DNA of 64,000 nucleotides from Pseudoxanthomonas sp. X-1. GTDB taxonomy: Bacteria > Pseudomonadota > Gammaproteobacteria > Xanthomonadales > Xanthomonadaceae. The stretch lies in contig NZ_CP083376.1 in the NCBI RefSeq assembly GCF_020042665.1, positions 4,233,501-4,297,500 of the forward strand, given 5' to 3'. Shown here one piece after another: positions 28,850 to 56,130 of the stretch. Under the pieces are notes generated by a model that was given only the letters and a program-made list of their open reading frames with translations, had not been told where the DNA came from and did not search any database. A program made the translations under genes and the position numbers. Position 1 is the first letter of the stretch; each line of letters begins with the position of its first letter.

Positions 28850-29869
28850 TCAGAAGGCGTGGTCGAACCCGACCTCGCCCTGCACGCCGACCTGGTAGGA
28901 CGACACCCGCCGCTCGAAGAAGTTGGTCAGCTCCTGCACGTCCTGCAGCTCCATGAAGGGCAGCGGATTGCGCACGTTGTACCTGCGCGCCATGCCCAGC
29001 TTGGCGAAATGGTTGTCCGCGCAGTGCTGCAGGTACTGGCGCATGTCGCGGGTGGAGATGCCCGCCACGCCGCCGGACAGCACGTCCTCGGCGAACTGCA
29101 GTTCGCACTCGATCGCCTCCTCCAGCATGTCGTAGACCTGCTGCTGCATCTCCGCGTCGAACAGGTCCGGCTCCTCCTCGCGCACCACGCGCACGCCCTC
29201 GAAGGCGAAGGCCATGTGGCAGCTCTCGTCGCGGAACACCCAGTTGGTGCCCGAGGCCAGGCCCGGCAGCAGACCGCGCGAGCGGAAGTAGTACACGTAG
29301 GCGAAGGCGGCGAAGAAGAACAGGCCCTCGATGCAGGCGGCGAAGCAGATCTGGTTGAGCAGGAACTGGCGGCGGTGCGCGCGCGTCTCCAGGCGCTTGA
29401 GGTCCTGGATGGTGTCCATCCACTTGAAGCAGAACTCGGCCTTCTTCCTGATCGAGGGGATGTTCTCCACCGCGGCGAAGGCCTTGGCGCGCTCGCCCGG
29501 ATCCGGCAGGTAGTTGTCCAGCAGCGTCAGGTAGAACTGCACGTGCAGCGCTTCCTCGTACAGCTGGCGCGACAGGTACATGCGCGCTTCCGGCGCGTTG
29601 ATGTGCTGGTAGAGGTTCAGCACCAGGTTGTTGGACACGATCGAATCGCCGGTGGCGAAGAAGGCGACCAGGCGGTGGATCAGGTGGCGATCGGCCGGGG
29701 TCATCTTCGCATGCAGATCGGTGATGTCGATCTGGAAGTTGATCTCGTCCACCGTCCAGGTGTTCTTGATGGCGTCGCGATACATGTCATAGAACTGCGG
29801 ATAGCGCATCGGGCGCAGGGTCAGTTCGAAACCGGGATCGAGCAGCATCTGACGGGGTTGAGCGGACAT
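28850..29869 (-). CDS. nrdB: Ribonucleoside-diphosphate reductase, beta subunit (class I)
   Basis: The 339-residue radical-generating subunit of class I ribonucleotide reductase. It houses the di-iron centre and passes the radical to NrdA. Metal ligands are visible: D75 (ATGDSI), E106 and H109 (YEEALHVQFY), and Glu/His in RDESCHMAF. Y113, four residues after H109, is at the usual tyrosyl-radical position, so it is a radical-type NrdB and not a Tyr-less variant. The C-terminal end is short (GEVGFDHAF). ATG 29869 was chosen from the family N-terminus. It lies 172 bp downstream of nrdA, separated by a strong hairpin repeat. Confidence 0.95.
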   Translation of the reverse strand: MSAQPRQMLLDPGFELTLRPMRYPQFYDMYRDAIKNTWTVDEINFQIDITDLHAKMTPADRHLIHRLVAFFATGDSIVSNNLVLNLYQHINAPEARMYLSRQLYEEALHVQFYLTLLDNYLPDPGERAKAFAAVENIPSIRKKAEFCFKWMDTIQDLKRLETRAHRRQFLLNQICFAACIEGLFFFAAFAYVYYFRSRGLLPGLASGTNWVFRDESCHMAFAFEGVRVVREEEPDLFDAEMQQQVYDMLEEAIECELQFAEDVLSGGVAGISTRDMRQYLQHCADNHFAKLGMARRYNVRNPLPFMELQDVQELTNFFERRVSSYQVGVQGEVGFDHAF

Positions 29870-30009
29870 GGTGTGTTGCCTTTTTCTTGATCCCTTCTCC
29901 CACCGGGACCGGGGCCCCTGGGGTCGAAGGTGGCGCGAAGCGCCGGATGAGGGTTCGGCGAGCGCACGGGCACGGAGCGTTTGACGGCTCCGCCGTACGC
30001 TCACCCCAA

Positions 30010-30041: not shown

Positions 30042-32459
30042 TTACTGGCAGGCCTCGCAGGCTTCCGGGTTTTCCAGCGAGCAGCTGACCGCCTCGACCG
30101 GGGTGTAGGCCGGCTTGGGGGCCTCGCTGGCGCCGTGGCTGATGGTGGCCTTGGCGATGCGGGTGGCCGGGCGCGAACGCAGGTAGTAGGTGGTCTTGAT
30201 GCCCTGCTTCCACGCGTACATGTACATGGAGGACAGCGCGCCGATGTTCGGGCTCTCCATGAACAGGTTGAGCGAGGCGGACTGGTCGATGAAGGCGCCG
30301 CGGTCGGCGGCCATGTCGATCAGCGAGCGCATCGGCAGCTCCCAGGCGGTGCGGTAGACCAGGCGCAGGGCCTCGGGGATCTCCGCCACGCCCTGGATCG
30401 AGCCTTCGGCCAGCTTGATGGCATCGCGCATCTCCGGCGTCCACAGGCCGAGCTTCTTCAGCTCGTCCACCAGGTAGCGGTTGACCTGCAGGAAGTCGCC
30501 GGACAGCGTTTCGCGCTTGAACAGGTTGGACACCTGCGGCTCGATGCACTCGTAGCAGCCGGCGATCGAGGCGATGGTCGCGGTCGGGGCGATGGCGATC
30601 AGCAGCGAGTTGCGCAGGCCGTGCTGCTGGATGCGCTCGCGCAGCGCGTCCCAGCGCGCGGTGTCCTCGGGCACCACGCCCCAGGCGTCGAACTGCAGCT
30701 CGCCCTGGGCGGCGCGCGTATCGGCGAAGGACGGATGCCTGCCGCGCTCCTGCGCCAGCTCGCACGAGGTCTCCAGCGCGTGGAAGTAGATCGTCTCGGC
30801 GATCTTCCTGCTGATCGCGCGCGCCTCGGCGCTGTCGAAGGCCAGGCGCTTGCGGAAGAACACGTCCTGCAGGCCCATGCAGCCCAGGCCGACCGGGCGC
30901 CAGCGCAGGTTGCCGCGGCGCGCGGTCTCGATCGGGTAGAAGTTCAGGTCGATCACGCGGTCCAGCTGGCGCACGGCCAGGCGCACGGTCTCGGCCAGCT
31001 TGTCGTAATCGAAGTCGCCGTACTCGTCGAAGTGGCGGCCCAGGTTGATCGAGCCCAGGTTGCACACCGCGGTCTCCTCGTTGGAGGTGACCTCCAGGAT
31101 CTCGGTGCACAGGTTGGACAGGTGGATCACGTTGCCCGGGCGCAGGGTCTGGTTGGACGCCTTGTTGCACTTGTCCTTGAAGGTCATCCAGCCGTTGCCG
31201 GTCTCGGCCAGGGTGCGCATCATCCGCGCGTACAGCTTGCGCGCCGGCACGGTCTTGCTGGCCTTGCCCTGGGCCTCGGCCTGCTCGTAGGCGCGCTCGA
31301 AGGCCTCGCCGTACAGGTCGGTCAGTTCCGGCACCGCCTTGGGATCGAACAGCGACCACGGCTTGTCCGCTTCCACGCGCGCCATGAACAGGTCCGGCAC
31401 CCAGTTGGCCAGGTTGAGGTTGTGGGTGCGGCGCGCGTCGTCGCCGGCGTTGTCGCGCAGCTCGAGGAAGTCGTCGATGTCCGCGTGCCAGGTCTCCAGG
31501 TAGACGCAGGCCGCGCCCTTGCGCTTGCCGCCCTGGTTGACCGCCGCCACCGAGGAATCCAGCGTCTTCAGCCACGGCACGATGCCGTTGGAATGGCCGT
31601 TGGTGGACTTGATCAGCGAGCCGCGCGCACGCACGCGCGAGTAGCTCACGCCGATGCCGCCGGAGAACTTGGACAGCTGGGCGATGTCGCCGTACTTGGC
31701 GTAGATCGACTCCAGCGAATCCTGCGGCGAGTCCAGCAGGAAGCAGCTGGAGAGCTGCTCGTGCGTGGTGCCGGAATTGAACAGCGTCGGGCTGGACGGC
31801 AGGTAGTCCAGGTGCGCCATGCGCTGGTACAGCGCCAGGGCCTCGGGCACGTCCTCGCTCAGCGCGCTGGCGATGCGCAGGAAGAACTGCTGCGGGGTCT
31901 CGATCACCTTGCGGCTGTGCGGGTGGCGCAACAGGTAGCGGTCGTACAGGGTGCGCAGGCCGAAGTACTCGAACTCGCGGTCCAGGCCGGCGTCGACGGC
32001 GTCGTTGAGCTTGCGCGCGTTGACCTGCACGAAGTTCAGCAGGCGGTCGTTGATCAGCCCGACCTCATGGCCGCGGGCGACCGACTGGGAGAAGGCGTGG
32101 ATCTCCTGGCCGGAGACCTCCTTGGCGATGAAGTTGGCCAGCAGGCGCGCGGCCAGGCGGCCGTACTCGGGCTCCTCGCCGATCAGCAGCGCGGCGGTGC
32201 GGATGGACAGCTCGTCCAGCTCCTGCGTGGTGGCGCCGTCGTACAGGCCGGAGATGGTGCGCGTGGCCACGCGCATCGGATCGACCGCATGCAGGCCTTC
32301 GGCGCAGCGCTGCACGGCGCGCACGATCTTGTTCAGGTCCACAGCCTCGCTGCCGCCGTTGCGCTTGGTCACGCGCATGGCCGTGGCGGTGGGCGGCGGG
32401 GTCAGCGAGAAGGCGGCGTCGGCCGGGCGCTGGGCCACGGCGGAATCGGTCTGGGTCAC
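30042..32459 (-). CDS. nrdA: Ribonucleoside-diphosphate reductase, alpha subunit (class I)
   Basis: Catalytic subunit (805 residues) reducing ribonucleotides to deoxyribonucleotides. An ATP-cone domain (about 25-115, MRVTKRNGGSEAVDLNKIV) gives allosteric activity control. The catalytic barrel shows SSCFLLDSP and the active-site loop NLCTEI. The C-terminus carries the redox pair CEAC, which passes electrons from thioredoxin or glutaredoxin. It is oxygen-dependent and B12-independent. The start is GTG at 32459 with GGAGAG 8 bp upstream; longer versions read back into leader RNA. Two layers of control lie upstream: tandem NrdR boxes on the promoter and a cobalamin riboswitch in the leader. Confidence 0.95.
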   Translation of the reverse strand: MTQTDSAVAQRPADAAFSLTPPPTATAMRVTKRNGGSEAVDLNKIVRAVQRCAEGLHAVDPMRVATRTISGLYDGATTQELDELSIRTAALLIGEEPEYGRLAARLLANFIAKEVSGQEIHAFSQSVARGHEVGLINDRLLNFVQVNARKLNDAVDAGLDREFEYFGLRTLYDRYLLRHPHSRKVIETPQQFFLRIASALSEDVPEALALYQRMAHLDYLPSSPTLFNSGTTHEQLSSCFLLDSPQDSLESIYAKYGDIAQLSKFSGGIGVSYSRVRARGSLIKSTNGHSNGIVPWLKTLDSSVAAVNQGGKRKGAACVYLETWHADIDDFLELRDNAGDDARRTHNLNLANWVPDLFMARVEADKPWSLFDPKAVPELTDLYGEAFERAYEQAEAQGKASKTVPARKLYARMMRTLAETGNGWMTFKDKCNKASNQTLRPGNVIHLSNLCTEILEVTSNEETAVCNLGSINLGRHFDEYGDFDYDKLAETVRLAVRQLDRVIDLNFYPIETARRGNLRWRPVGLGCMGLQDVFFRKRLAFDSAEARAISRKIAETIYFHALETSCELAQERGRHPSFADTRAAQGELQFDAWGVVPEDTARWDALRERIQQHGLRNSLLIAIAPTATIASIAGCYECIEPQVSNLFKRETLSGDFLQVNRYLVDELKKLGLWTPEMRDAIKLAEGSIQGVAEIPEALRLVYRTAWELPMRSLIDMAADRGAFIDQSASLNLFMESPNIGALSSMYMYAWKQGIKTTYYLRSRPATRIAKATISHGASEAPKPAYTPVEAVSCSLENPEACEACQ

Positions 32460-32654
32460 GGTCGGAACTCTCCATGCGTGGATGCACGCGTCGCGCCCTC
32501 CCACGAGGGAGCGACAGGGGCCGGGCGACCGAGGGTGGAAGGGCGGCGTCGCAGAAACCGCGACCGCACGGACGTGTCCGTGGTCGGGCCTTGCGTCAAC
32601 AGCCATCTCTCCCTCGAAAGACACCGCGGCCGGTGCCGCGCGGTGTGCGTGCGC

Positions 32655-32935
32655 GCGGCTGTCGGCAGGTCTTCGGACTGAAGGGCGTGAAGCGCGCAAC
32701 GCGTGGTGAGGAACAAGGGACGAGTGAATGCGCGACGCGCCACTCCCGTTTCTCGTTTCTCCCAACGCGCTCCTGCTTCTCCTAACCCACCGCTTCCCAA
32801 GGCCACGGGGGCCTCAGTGCAGATGGCGGGGTCGTTCCCAATCACCGCTGCGGGGCAGTGCCGGACTGGGCCGCGAGGCCGCACCGGCTTCCCTTTTGAT
32901 CCTCGCGGCTTGGGGCCGCAAGGAACCGACGACCC
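32655..32935 (-). promoter_or_regulatory. Cobalamin (B12) riboswitch upstream of nrdA
   Basis: Read on the minus strand, the conserved blocks occur in order: GGTTCC near the 5' end, AAAAGGGAAGCCGGTG, CTGCCCCGCAGCGGT, the B12-box region TGCACTGAGG with TTGGGAAGCGG, and 3' CAGTCCGAAGACCTGCC (32664-32680). GTCGG (32926-32930) can pair with CCGAC (32661-32665) to close the P1 stem. The aptamer ends about 200 nt before the nrdA start. Bound adenosylcobalamin should lower nrdA expression. This fits the known logic of B12 repressing B12-independent isozymes. Confidence 0.92.
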
Positions 32936-32980
32936 CAAGATAGTGGGGTCATCCGCGCCCGTCAACGCCAAATGTAGTGA
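32933..32980 (-). promoter_or_regulatory. nrdA promoter with tandem NrdR boxes
   Basis: On the minus strand, TCACTACATTTGGCGT (32965-32980) and CCCCACTATCTTGGGG (32933-32948) both fit the NrdR-box pattern (ACACWATATATWGTGT with tolerated changes). Their starts are 32 bp apart, close to the usual spacing. A sigma-70 promoter is interleaved: TTGACG (32960-32965), 17 bp, TATCTT (32937-32942), with the -10 inside the second box. NrdR bound to both boxes would block RNA polymerase when dATP/ATP signals are high. Confidence 0.8.
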
Positions 32981-33174
32981 CAAAAGGGAAGGTGCTGATG
33001 CCATGCGGGTTTCACGGATTTCGCCCCGTGGAGCATCGCCGGACGGTGTGCGCTGCGGCACGGTTGACGCGCCCTTGCCCACCGGTGTCCGATGTTGGGC
33101 AGGCACCTTCGGTCCCGTTGCGGACAACGGCACCCGAGCGCACGCGCGCCCCTACCGTCCACGAAGCCCCTGCC

Positions 33175-34083
33175 ATGCACGATCACACCCTGTCCCCCCC
33201 GTCCGCGCTGCGACGCCTGCTGCCGTGGCTGCTGGCGCTGGCCGCCCTGCTGCTGGGCGCCTGGCTGCTGCAGGCGGTCCTGGCCCAATGGCCGCATCGG
33301 CCGGGCCTGCGCCAGGCGCTGCGCGACGGCCTGGTCTGCGCCGCGGCCACCGCCGCCGGCGCGCTGCCGGTGCTGGCGGTGCGGCGCCTGCCGCAGACGC
33401 TGGCCGACGGCCTGATGGGCTTCGGCGCCGGCGTGATGCTGGCGGCCACCGCCTTCTCATTGATCGTGCCCAGCCTGCAGGCGGCCAAGGACCAGGGCTA
33501 CGGCGGGCTGGGCGCCGGCGGGCTGGTCAGCGTCGGCATCTGCCTGGGCGTGGCGATGATGCTGACGATGGACCGGGTGATCCCGCACGCGCATCTGGAC
33601 CAGCAGGGCCAGACCACGCGCGTGGGCGGCCTGCACCAGTGGCTGCCGCCGCAGGTGACCCTGTTCGTGCTGGCCATCACCCTGCACAACATTCCCGAAG
33701 GCATGGCGGTGGGCGTGGCCTCCGGCTCGGGCATGGCCAACGCCGAGCCCTTCAGCCTGGCCATCGCGCTGCAGGACATCCCCGAAGGCCTGGTGATCGC
33801 GCTCTCGCTGGCCACGGCCGGCGTGCGCCGCGGGCGCGCGGTGCTGATCGGCGCGGCCTCGGGGCTGGTGGAGCCGCTGGGCGCGCTCGTGGCGGCGGTG
33901 GCGGTGGGCGCGTTCTCCACCCTGCTGCCGTGGGGGCTGGCGTTCGCGGCCGGGGCGATGCTGTTCGCGGTCAGCCACGAGGTCATCCCCGAGTCGCACC
34001 GCAACGGCCACGAGACCCTGGCGACCATCGGCCTGACCCTGGGCTTCTGCCTGATGATGGTGATGGACACCGGGCTGGGCTGA
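33175..34083 (+). CDS. ZIP-family metal transporter (GufA-like)
   Basis: An inner-membrane protein of 302 residues with about eight membrane segments. The metal-site motifs of the GufA branch are visible: LHNIPEGMAVG (TM4) and LQDIPEGLVIAL (TM5). A short His-bearing loop, IPHAHLDQQ, precedes them. Family members import Zn2+ and related divalent metals. ATG 33175 was chosen; the upstream in-frame stretch is Arg/Pro-rich leader. Its promoter must lie in the 715-bp gap shared with nrdA. I saw no clear Zur or Fur box there. It ends directly against the convergent sterol-desaturase gene. Confidence 0.88.
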   Translation: MHDHTLSPPSALRRLLPWLLALAALLLGAWLLQAVLAQWPHRPGLRQALRDGLVCAAATAAGALPVLAVRRLPQTLADGLMGFGAGVMLAATAFSLIVPSLQAAKDQGYGGLGAGGLVSVGICLGVAMMLTMDRVIPHAHLDQQGQTTRVGGLHQWLPPQVTLFVLAITLHNIPEGMAVGVASGSGMANAEPFSLAIALQDIPEGLVIALSLATAGVRRGRAVLIGAASGLVEPLGALVAAVAVGAFSTLLPWGLAFAAGAMLFAVSHEVIPESHRNGHETLATIGLTLGFCLMMVMDTGLG

Positions 34084-53268: not shown

Positions 53269-55560
53269 TCAGGCCGCCTGGGCCAGATCCGCACGCAGGC
53301 GGCGTGCGGCCTCCACCATCTGCTCCAGCGCATGGCGCGTTTCCTCCCAGCCACGGGTCTTCAGGCCGCAGTCCGGGTTGACCCACAGCTGCTGCGGGCT
53401 GAGCACCGCCCGCGCCTTGCGCAGCAGTTCCACCATTTCCTCCACCGAGGGCACGCGCGGGGAGTGGATGTCGTACACGCCCGGGCCGATGCCGTTGGGA
53501 TAGCGGAACCGCACGAACGCATCGAGCAGCTCCATGCGCGAGCGCGAGGTCTCGATCGAGATCACATCCGCATCCATCGCCGCCACCGCATCGATGATGT
53601 CGTTGAACTCCGAGTAGCACATGTGGGTGTGGATCTGGGTCGTATCGCCCACGCCGCTGGCGCAGATGCGGAAGGCCTCGATCGCCCAGTTCAGGTAATC
53701 CGACCACGCATCGCGGCGCAGCGGCAGACCCTCTCGGATGGCGGGCTCGTCGATCTGGATGATGCCGATGCCGGCGGCCTCCAGGTCGTTGACCTCATCG
53801 CGCAGGGCCAGCGCGATCTGGCGGCAGGTCTCGCTGCGGGCCTGGTCGTCGCGCACGAACGACCACTGCAGCACCGTGACCGGGCCGGTCAGCATGCCCT
53901 TCATCGGCCGCCGGGTCAGCGACTGGGCGTAGCGCGACCAGCGCACCGTCATCGGCTTCGGGCGCACCACGTCGCCGAAGATGATCGGCGGTTTGACGCA
54001 GCGGCTGCCGTAGCTCTGCACCCAGCCCAGCTTGGTGAAGGCGAAGCCGTCCAGCTGCTCGCCGAAGTACTCGACCATGTCGTTGCGCTCATACTCGCCA
54101 TGCACCAGCACGTCCAGGCCGATGCGTTCCTGGAAGCGCACGCAGCGCTCGGTCTCGGCTTCCAGGAAGGTCTCGTAGTCGGCATCTGACAGCTTGCCCG
54201 CCTTGTGCTGGGCGCGTGCCTGGCGCACCTGCCGGGTCTGCGGGAACGAGCCGATGGTGGTGGTCGGGTACACGGGCAGCGCGAACGCCTGCTCCTGCAG
54301 CACGCGGCGCTGGGCGTAGGGCGAGGCGCGCCGGCTGTCGGCCTCGCTCAGCGTGGCCAGGCGCCGGGCCACCTCGGGCCGATGCACGCGCGCCGACTGA
54401 CGGCGCGATTCCAGGCGGGCGCGCTGCTGCGCCAGCCGGCCTTCCGCGCCTTCGCGTCCGTCCAGCGCGTCGGCCAGCACGCGCAGCTCGCCCAGCTTCT
54501 GCCGGGCGAAGGACAGCCAGGATTTGAGTTCGGCGTCGAGCGCCTTCTCCTGCTCCAGGTCCACCGGCACGTGCAGCAGCGCGCACGACGGCGCCAGCCA
54601 CAGGTTGTCCGCGCCGACGTGCCCTTGCGCATAGCGCGCCAGCGTCAGCGCGTTGTCCAGGTTGGTGCGCCAGACATTGCGCCCGTTGACCAGGCCAGCC
54701 GAGAGCACGCGGCCCTTGGGCCAGGCCTGCAGCACCGCGTCGAGCTGTTCCGGCGCACGCACCAGGTCCACGTGCAGGCCCTCGACCTGCAGCCGCGCGA
54801 CCAGGTCCAGGTTGTCGCCCAGCGCGCCGAAGTAGGTGGTCAGCAGCAGCCTGGAGCGCGGCGCCTGGGCCAGAAACGCATAGGCCCGGGCGAAGGCCGC
54901 CCTGGCCGCCTCGTCCAGGTCCAGCACCAGCGTGGGTTCGTCGATCTGCACCCAGGCCGCGCCCGCGGCATGCAGGCGTTCGAGCAGCTGCGCGTACACC
55001 GGCAGCAGGCGCTCGAGCAGCGCCAGCCGGTCGCTGCCATCGGTGGTCTTGGACAGCAGCAGGAAGCTCACCGGCCCCAGCAGCACCGGCCGCGTGTCGA
55101 AGCTGGCGGCTTTGGCTTCGAGGAACTGCGCCACGGGCTTGTCGCCGCGCAGGGCGAAGTCCTGGCCGGCGTGCAGTTCCGGGACGATGTAGTGGTAGTT
55201 GGTGTCGAACCACTTGGTCATCTCCAGCGCGCGCAGGTCGATGCCGCCGGTCTGCACGCCGCGCGCCATGGCGAAGTAGCCGGCCAGCGGGTCGGCATCG
55301 GCCAGGGCGCGATAGCGCTGCGGGAGGGCGTCGAACAGGAACGCCGTGTCCAGCACATGGTCGTAGAGCGAGAAGTCGTTGCTGGGCAGCACGTCGGCGC
55401 CGGCCCGCCGCTGCAGCTGCCAGTGCTGCGCGCGCAGGGCCGCGGCGGTGGCCTGCAGCGTGTCGGCGCTGTCCTCGCCCTTCCAGTAGCGCTCCAGGGC
55501 GTGCTTGAGTTCGCGGCGTGGTCCGATGCGCGGAAAGCCGAGGTTGGTGACGCTGGTCAT
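53269..55560 (-). CDS. metE: Cobalamin-independent methionine synthase
   Basis: A 763-residue cytoplasmic enzyme that moves the methyl of 5-methyltetrahydropteroyl-triglutamate to homocysteine to give methionine, without B12. Zinc ligands appear in HTHMCYSEFND (His, Cys), a Glu between them and NPDCGLKTRGW (Cys). The N-terminal half holds the folate-like domain (TNLGFPRIGPRRELKHALE). Length matches E. coli MetE (about 753). The ATG at 55560 follows AGGATCC. A cobalamin riboswitch lies 245 bp upstream in the leader, giving the expected B12 repression. Confidence 0.96.
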   Translation of the reverse strand: MTSVTNLGFPRIGPRRELKHALERYWKGEDSADTLQATAAALRAQHWQLQRRAGADVLPSNDFSLYDHVLDTAFLFDALPQRYRALADADPLAGYFAMARGVQTGGIDLRALEMTKWFDTNYHYIVPELHAGQDFALRGDKPVAQFLEAKAASFDTRPVLLGPVSFLLLSKTTDGSDRLALLERLLPVYAQLLERLHAAGAAWVQIDEPTLVLDLDEAARAAFARAYAFLAQAPRSRLLLTTYFGALGDNLDLVARLQVEGLHVDLVRAPEQLDAVLQAWPKGRVLSAGLVNGRNVWRTNLDNALTLARYAQGHVGADNLWLAPSCALLHVPVDLEQEKALDAELKSWLSFARQKLGELRVLADALDGREGAEGRLAQQRARLESRRQSARVHRPEVARRLATLSEADSRRASPYAQRRVLQEQAFALPVYPTTTIGSFPQTRQVRQARAQHKAGKLSDADYETFLEAETERCVRFQERIGLDVLVHGEYERNDMVEYFGEQLDGFAFTKLGWVQSYGSRCVKPPIIFGDVVRPKPMTVRWSRYAQSLTRRPMKGMLTGPVTVLQWSFVRDDQARSETCRQIALALRDEVNDLEAAGIGIIQIDEPAIREGLPLRRDAWSDYLNWAIEAFRICASGVGDTTQIHTHMCYSEFNDIIDAVAAMDADVISIETSRSRMELLDAFVRFRYPNGIGPGVYDIHSPRVPSVEEMVELLRKARAVLSPQQLWVNPDCGLKTRGWEETRHALEQMVEAARRLRADLAQAA

Positions 55561-55804
55561 TGATGGATCCTCATTGCGTGTGGGCATTGAGGAACGAAGG
55601 AACCGCACGCCACGCCTCACGGCCCTGCGGCTGCGACGTGCCATGCCAGCGACCTTCGCCCCCCGCGGGCGAACCGGCCCCGTGCGCGGAAACCTCCACA
55701 CGCGCACGCACGCGGCACCGGGCCTTGCGCCCGCCGCATCACGCGCCCGTGCCGCTCCCGCGAGCGGTGCCAGGTCGAAGCGGAAGACCCGTTGGCGGGT
55801 CCTC

Positions 55805-56092
55805 CGGCCGGGGCCGGTCTTCGGGCTCATGGACTTGGGGCGGGAAACGAGGGGAGAGAACGGGGACGAGTCAAGCCGGAACCATCCGCTTGTCACGCAT
55901 CCCTGTTCCTCCCCACGCGTTCCCGGGCCCTGGACCTAGCCGTCGCTTCCCAGGGACAGGCCCCAGTGCAGATGACGGGTTCGTTTCCAGTTACCGCTGC
56001 GGGGCAGCTCCGGAATGGACGCGCACACGGCGCGCCTTCACCGGATTCCCGTTTAATCCATCGCTTCATGTGGATGAAGCGATGGAACCACG
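55805..56092 (-). promoter_or_regulatory. Cobalamin (B12) riboswitch upstream of metE
   Basis: On the minus strand: GGTTCC, a perfect 12-bp hairpin (CCATCGCTTCAT, loop CCAC), AAACGGGAATCCGGTG, GAGCTGCCCCGCAGCGGTAA, B12-box region TGCACTGGGG with TGGGAAGCGACGG, and 3' ATGAGCCCGAAGACCGGCC (55812-55830). All the main conserved blocks occur in order. A likely role is to cut metE expression when B12 is bound. The downstream leader (about 245 nt to the ATG) contains GACCCG/CGGGTC and GC-rich stems that could form the expression platform. Confidence 0.92.
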
Positions 56093-56100
56093 ACGAGCGC

Positions 56101-56130
56101 ACCTTACGCGCCGGTAGCCGGGCGCGTCAA
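56101..56130 (-). promoter_or_regulatory. metE promoter
   Basis: TTGACG (56125-56130) and TAAGGT (56101-56106) are 18 bp apart, just upstream of the riboswitch 5' end. The -10 is a weak match. Confidence 0.5.

Follow-up and report, generated by a model that had tools for sequence, protein, structure and literature searches.

The nrdAB locus and its leader

The window analyzed here is a 64,000-nucleotide stretch of the Pseudoxanthomonas sp. X-1 genome, in which the minus strand carries nrdA and nrdB behind a leader of several parts. The features discussed below are as follows.

28850..29872, minus strand: nrdB, class I ribonucleotide reductase small subunit
30042..32459, minus strand: nrdA, class I ribonucleotide reductase large subunit, 805 aa, B12-independent
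32460..32646, minus strand: rest of the leader, presumed expression platform
32468..32473, minus strand: ribosome-binding sequence GGAGAG preceding the GTG start, read by eye
32647..32945, minus strand: cobalamin riboswitch aptamer (RF00174 match)
32693..32770, minus strand: hairpin insert in the variable arm of the nrdA aptamer (ends approximate)
32933..32948, minus strand: predicted NrdR box 2, CCCCACTATCTTGGGG, containing the whole -10 hexamer
32937..32942, minus strand: -10 hexamer TATCTT, spacer of 17
32960..32965, minus strand: -35 hexamer TTGACG
32965..32980, minus strand: predicted NrdR box 1, TCACTACATTTGGCGT, just 5' of the -35 hexamer and overlapping its first base
53269..55560, minus strand: metE, B12-independent methionine synthase
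55795..56107, minus strand: second cobalamin riboswitch of the window, upstream of metE

The NrdA protein is 100% identical (802 kept columns) to that of the nearest relative, Pseudoxanthomonas winnipegensis NML 130738 (L010), which places the genome in this species or close to it. The divergent frame upstream of nrdA matches the ZupT transporter model below its cut-off.

Predicted paired NrdR boxes on the nrdA promoter

The original prediction had described two NrdR-box-like 16-mers, 32 bp apart, flanking or overlapping TTGACG-N17-TATCTT, and the arrangement was found as described. This promoter is the sole sigma-70-like site in 32300-33200 (mean of 0.0 in 50 shuffles), and transcription would start near position 32930 on the minus strand. 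The two boxes are offset by exactly 32 bp, which leaves a spacer of 16 bp between two palindromes of about 16 bp each and falls within the first of the two spacer classes looked for (14 to 17 or 24 to 27 bp); the NrdRs of four bacteria are reported to bind boxes with a spacer of 14 to 17 bp (PMC12051234). In a weighted scoring of box pairs, with a consensus and weights of our own after Rodionov and Gelfand 2005, the nrdA pair reached 32.25, and the runner-up in the 64-kb window reached 25.0 (offset 31 to 33, both strands). The nrdA pair exceeds the best pair of all 100 whole-window shuffles (at most 29.75, mean 26.6), and 100 shuffles of the 900-nt upstream stretch gave at most 27.25.

A scan with the strict 14-base NrdR consensus, allowing up to 3 mismatches, gave 4 matches, which is chance level (mean 3.13) and includes neither box; it was replaced by the weighted pair score with shuffles. 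By itself, neither predicted box is a close match to the published consensus as applied here, and C4 and G13 of the 16-mer are present in both. Because the strict scan missed them, the single boxes are not striking and the pair is. Each putative site is only moderately good, and what carries the claim is the pairing together with its spacing and conservation. Part of the 32-bp offset follows from the spacing of the promoter, since the -10 lies in box 2 and the -35 begins in box 1.

Conservation was assessed in 81 nrdA leaders, namely, the window and the best 80 of 588 relatives, a sample that represents near kin because of this selection. The search covered about 900 nt upstream (1,242 nt for the window, less at contig ends) and allowed offsets of 26 to 42. 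The best pair had an offset of 32 in 70 leaders, 31 in 4, and 33 in 5, with outliers at 34 and 37 (1 leader each). An offset of 31 to 33 was thus found in 79/81 leaders, in at least 3 of which (L034, L049, and L053) the best pair differs from the promoter pair and has its second member inside the aptamer.

The genome holds one match to NrdR (177 aa; TIGR00244, 192.7 bits), with a Zn ribbon and an ATP cone (PF22811 and PF03477), so the prediction does not fall for want of the regulator. Its sequence has R12, D15, R17, R26-R29, and R37, which are the residues named as DNA contacts in the reported Streptomyces coelicolor NrdR (PMC9110341). The gene sits behind glyA, which was named from sequence reading.

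A complete cobalamin aptamer in the nrdA leader

The leader was also said to begin with a complete cobalamin aptamer, a claim that a low covariance-model score would have undone. RF00174 matches at 80.5 bits, far above the gathering cut-off of 31.5, and does so end to end (model positions 1-189 of 189). The aptamer lies on the same strand and 5' of a gene with a B12-dependent alternative, the class I reductase starting at 32459. Its P1 stem would pair 32930-32925 (GTCGGT) with 32666-32661 (GCCGAC); with P1 starting at about 32930, the first 15 positions of the Rfam match therefore fall in the promoter.

No conserved intrinsic terminator was seen in the nrdA leader downstream of the aptamer, in the window or in the aligned relatives. 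A candidate at 32640-32625 (minus strand) was rejected as a weak site whose T run is lost in relatives. This part of the leader has conserved stems, and no clear sequestration of the ribosome site was seen in it. Our guess is that an off-switch by B12 would act through translation or Rho rather than through an intrinsic terminator. By eye, we also noted that the CCCC loop of P5 might form a kissing contact with the loop of a hairpin further downstream, which reads GGGG in many relatives and GAGG here.

The nrdA start at 32459 is kept in 18/18 aligned leaders by eye, as GTG in 14 and as ATG in 4 (L033, L034, L036, and L040). An ATG at 32606 with a good ribosome site was rejected as the nrdA start, being kept in 11 of the 18 leaders and missing in 7; P. 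winnipegensis has ACG in its place. It could conceivably serve as a second start.

A repeat-like insert in the variable arm

Within its variable arm, the nrdA aptamer carries a hairpin insert of about 70 nt, not mentioned in the original prediction, that the P. winnipegensis leader lacks. The folding energy of the arm is -45.1 kcal/mol (z of -3.9), and the insert is related to a palindromic repeat, CTCGTTCCTCGTTCC, that is dispersed through the genome; its half-sites were found 22 times with up to 2 mismatches, including the nrdA one, and 0 times with the reversed control. The arm of the metE aptamer is similarly long (55826-55942, a 117-nt stretch, z of -3.6), so that both cobalamin riboswitches of the window bear long palindromic arms.

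The size of arm inserts in relatives was gauged by the RF00174 span only. Among 58 nrdA-linked RF00174 matches (this genome and 57 from the best 80 of 588 relatives), 17 span at least 280 nt and the others 204 to 261 nt, as read by eye. In some other species, a different repeat, of the AGGAGCGGC type, seemingly occupies the same aptamer arm, again by eye. Automatic sorting of the inserts into two repeat families was abandoned as too loose: L007, L033, L057, and L069 were assigned to family B and are family A-like by eye, and some lengths also disagree. Among the papers listed on riboswitches and palindromic repeats, we recognized none on this arm insert. The near-identical nrdA loci with and without it make its effect on the riboswitch directly testable.

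B12-dependent and B12-independent isozymes in the genome

The B12-dependent reductase that the original prediction presumed is present: nrdJ, encoding the class II enzyme, matches at 587 bits in an open frame. The genome also holds matches to metH in two pieces with one TGA (G000:C1:2224345-2228646), which may represent a split gene or a broken frame. B12-dependent and B12-independent enzymes are thus found side by side for both functions (nrdJ and nrdAB; metH, in two pieces, and metE). Three cobalamin riboswitches were found in the genome, and they lead a BtuB-like receptor (named from reading of the sequence), metE, and nrdA. The sole marker of B12 synthesis tried, cobB/cbiA, had no match in the genome; with this, and with a riboswitch of its own on the BtuB-like receptor, the B12 signal is probably one of uptake.

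Upstream of nrdJ, this genome has GCCCAAGATGTAGCGA and CCCCAAGCGGTAGGGT, 32 bp apart, as a predicted NrdR box pair (L005, 1166-1181 and 1198-1213). Their score of 28.5 lies within the range of the shuffled 64-kb window (maximum of 29.75), and the pair is weaker than that of nrdA. When offsets of 30 to 34 and 40 to 43 were allowed in this genome and in 20 of the 54 relatives holding both nrdJ and the nrdA aptamer, the best pair was offset by 31 to 33 in 19 of the 21 sequences and by 34 in 2. The first box is well kept, and the second is weaker and lacks the central AT. The argument for NrdR control of nrdJ, which we consider probable, is this conservation. When all of the 21 nrdJ loci except L108 were scanned with Rfam (20 loci), nothing exceeded the gathering cut-offs and no riboswitch was seen.

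The conserved nrdJ leader (L005 1166-1213 and L090-L109) also has a box-like element, CCCAAGC-N-GGG, which is followed in some species by its own inverted repeat; this element may represent NrdR box 2, a small RNA element, or a hairpin arm. In a separate observation, an in-frame stretch of about 1 kb interrupts nrdJ near model position 281 in the genomes of L015, L046, L051, L065, L077, and L083, as an intein would do.

Distribution of the aptamer and nrdJ among relatives

The aptamer and nrdJ were compared across 79 genomes (40 and 39) from the best 80 of 588 relatives, with L058 left out and RF00174 matches assigned to nrdA by position, by eye. The nrdA aptamer was found in 57 of these 79 genomes, 54 of which hold nrdJ over the cut-off. 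Among the 22 without it, nrdJ was found in 2 (L015 and L082), and the contig of L082 extends just 644 nt upstream of nrdA. In two aptamer-bearing genomes nrdJ is damaged or partial: L048, a metagenome-assembled genome, has it in two overlapping pieces with an apparently broken frame, and L072 has a fragment. The third aptamer-bearing row without nrdJ over the cut-off, L063, is a record of the cyanobacterium Tolypothrix with a Xanthomonad-like nrdA and aptamer, probably a contaminating contig.

On the nrdA tree, with 77 of 81 rows scored (L058, L048, L072, and L063 dropped) and presence labels set by hand, the aptamer and nrdJ changed 3 times each; a sign test on the 3 independent pairs that result was not significant (median p of 0.5). 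The counts of 54/57 and 2/22 are not independent evidence, because there are only these 3 changes each. Among the relatives examined, the nrdA aptamer appears to go with nrdJ, an association that rests on few events.

All 18 aptamer-less Stenotrophomonas rows among the best 80 of 588 keep the NrdR boxes and the promoter, with box 2 as CCCCACTATCTTGTGG in 18 and box 1 as TCACTACATTTGGCGT in 14 and as close variants in 4. In S. chelatiphaga (L029), the nrdA leader retains a broken aptamer (2674-2817; 21.9 bits, below the cut-off, E = 0.18), whereas a scan of 8 aptamer-less loci gave no RF00174 match up to E = 5 in the remaining 7. When 8 aptamer-less leaders were aligned with 4 intact ones, remnants of P1, P2, or the downstream hairpins were visible in others, most clearly in L009, L012, L015, and L016. 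The broken copy and these remnants hint at aptamer decay as the direction of change. These nrdJ-less species, with NrdR boxes retained, the aptamer gone, and one broken copy in place, amount to a natural experiment.

A second, weakly NrdJ-like large-subunit reductase was observed in 16 of the 17 Stenotrophomonas genomes that have neither aptamer nor nrdJ (e.g., L009, L013, and L018), mostly at about 150 bits with a second piece.

Proposed control of nrdAB at two successive steps

We propose that nrdAB is controlled at two successive steps, by NrdR at the promoter and then by the cobalamin riboswitch in the leader, and we place the probability of this reading at roughly 87%. When deoxynucleotides are plentiful, NrdR would be loaded with dATP/ATP and bind both boxes, three helical turns apart across the -35 and -10, and initiation would be blocked. 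Transcripts that escape NrdR would fold the cobalamin aptamer at their 5' end; binding of adenosylcobalamin would then lower nrdA output through the downstream leader, and the B12-dependent NrdJ would take over. The analysis establishes the sequence elements, their conservation, and the presence of nrdR, nrdJ, metE, metH (in two pieces), and a BtuB-like gene; NrdR binding, the start site, and the sign and mechanism of the B12 response are inferred. The original prediction, that nrdA answers both the demand for deoxynucleotides and the presence of a B12-dependent reductase, is supported at the level of sequence, and our addition is that the nucleotide signal seems common to both enzymes and the B12 signal particular to nrdA. 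Because the box pair of nrdJ is weaker and a riboswitch is lacking there, NrdR can be read as a common throttle and the riboswitch as the chooser: NrdR, probably also acting at nrdJ, would set the total supply, and the riboswitch would pick the enzyme.

The evidence bears unequally on other explanations. If the riboswitch alone were functional, the box-like 16-mers would be ordinary promoter sequence that happens to look palindromic; the strict consensus search did miss both, and with box 2 centered on the -10 and box 1 touching the -35, promoter selection alone would preserve part of them. However, box 1 is preserved whether or not a leader has the aptamer, although it lies almost entirely outside the hexamers, the pair scores above all 100 shuffles, and an NrdR with the DNA-reading residues is present, which together make this explanation improbable. 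Slightly less probable still is that NrdR works but the aptamer, its arm enlarged by a repeat, is a remnant or no longer switches. The approximately 70 extra nucleotides relative to P. winnipegensis would fit such a history, and a relative shows that decay of the element is possible, but the RF00174 match is complete and scores 80.5 bits, the genome has nrdJ in an open frame, and long arms are common, as 17 of the 58 nrdA-linked matches reach at least 280 nt.

It is also conceivable, at a very low probability, that the riboswitch raises nrdA expression or senses another cobamide state, given that the sign of the response and the platform are matters of inference only. Against this, the aptamer sits on the B12-independent isozyme beside a B12-dependent one, as does the metE riboswitch, and B12 repression has been reported or proposed in such pairs (PMC545781, PMC2211319, and PMC3848588).

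Control by NrdR and then by the riboswitch might extend to a wider scheme, which we offer as tentative and rather doubtful. Across the Lysobacterales, NrdR would be the shared throttle and the riboswitch the sole chooser, the riboswitch would decay upon loss of nrdJ, and the boxes would stay. As part of the same scheme, dispersed palindromic repeats would have landed repeatedly in the variable arm of this riboswitch and may adjust it from strain to strain.

Comparison with known systems

In searches of open-access papers, we recognized none on double control by NrdR and a riboswitch in Lysobacterales. Rodionov 2003 may already list Xanthomonads.

A cobalamin riboswitch on the B12-independent isozyme where the B12-dependent one is in the genome is a reported pattern (PMC545781 and PMC2211319), and shut-off of the B12-independent isozyme by B12 has been treated as a regulon category (PMC3766115). 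The B12-element on the B12-independent isozyme is reported for nrdDG in delta-proteobacteria and for metE; the reductase genes under it there are nrdDG, whereas here they are nrdAB, and the accounts consulted mention no NrdR layer. In Pseudomonas aeruginosa, NrdR is reported to control nrdA, nrdJ, and nrdD, as judged from an nrdR mutant and box-mutant fusions, with NrdR boxes on class I and class II genes, as predicted for our genome; the word riboswitch has 0 occurrences in the main text of that report, whereas the element is present here (PMC4409342).

The closest parallels come from S. coelicolor and Propionibacterium (Cutibacterium) acnes. The class Ia nrdABS of S. coelicolor is described with a cobalamin riboswitch (PMC4991794) and NrdR boxes (PMC9110341); as here, nrdJ is also in the genome, and its operon is reported to have NrdR boxes. 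In that actinobacterium nrdR and nrdJ form one operon, whereas here nrdR lies behind glyA and nrdJ elsewhere. In P. acnes, nrdAB is reported with a promoter NrdR box and a leader cobalamin riboswitch, with nrdRJ in the genome, much of the transcription stops in the leader, and the authors argue for the same control logic (PMC3848588); a single box is reported there, in contrast to the pair found here. Double control is therefore known in principle from S. coelicolor and P. acnes, and the Pseudoxanthomonas locus adds a clear example from the gammaproteobacteria of a central gene that would answer first to a transcription factor and then to a riboswitch, each with its own input.
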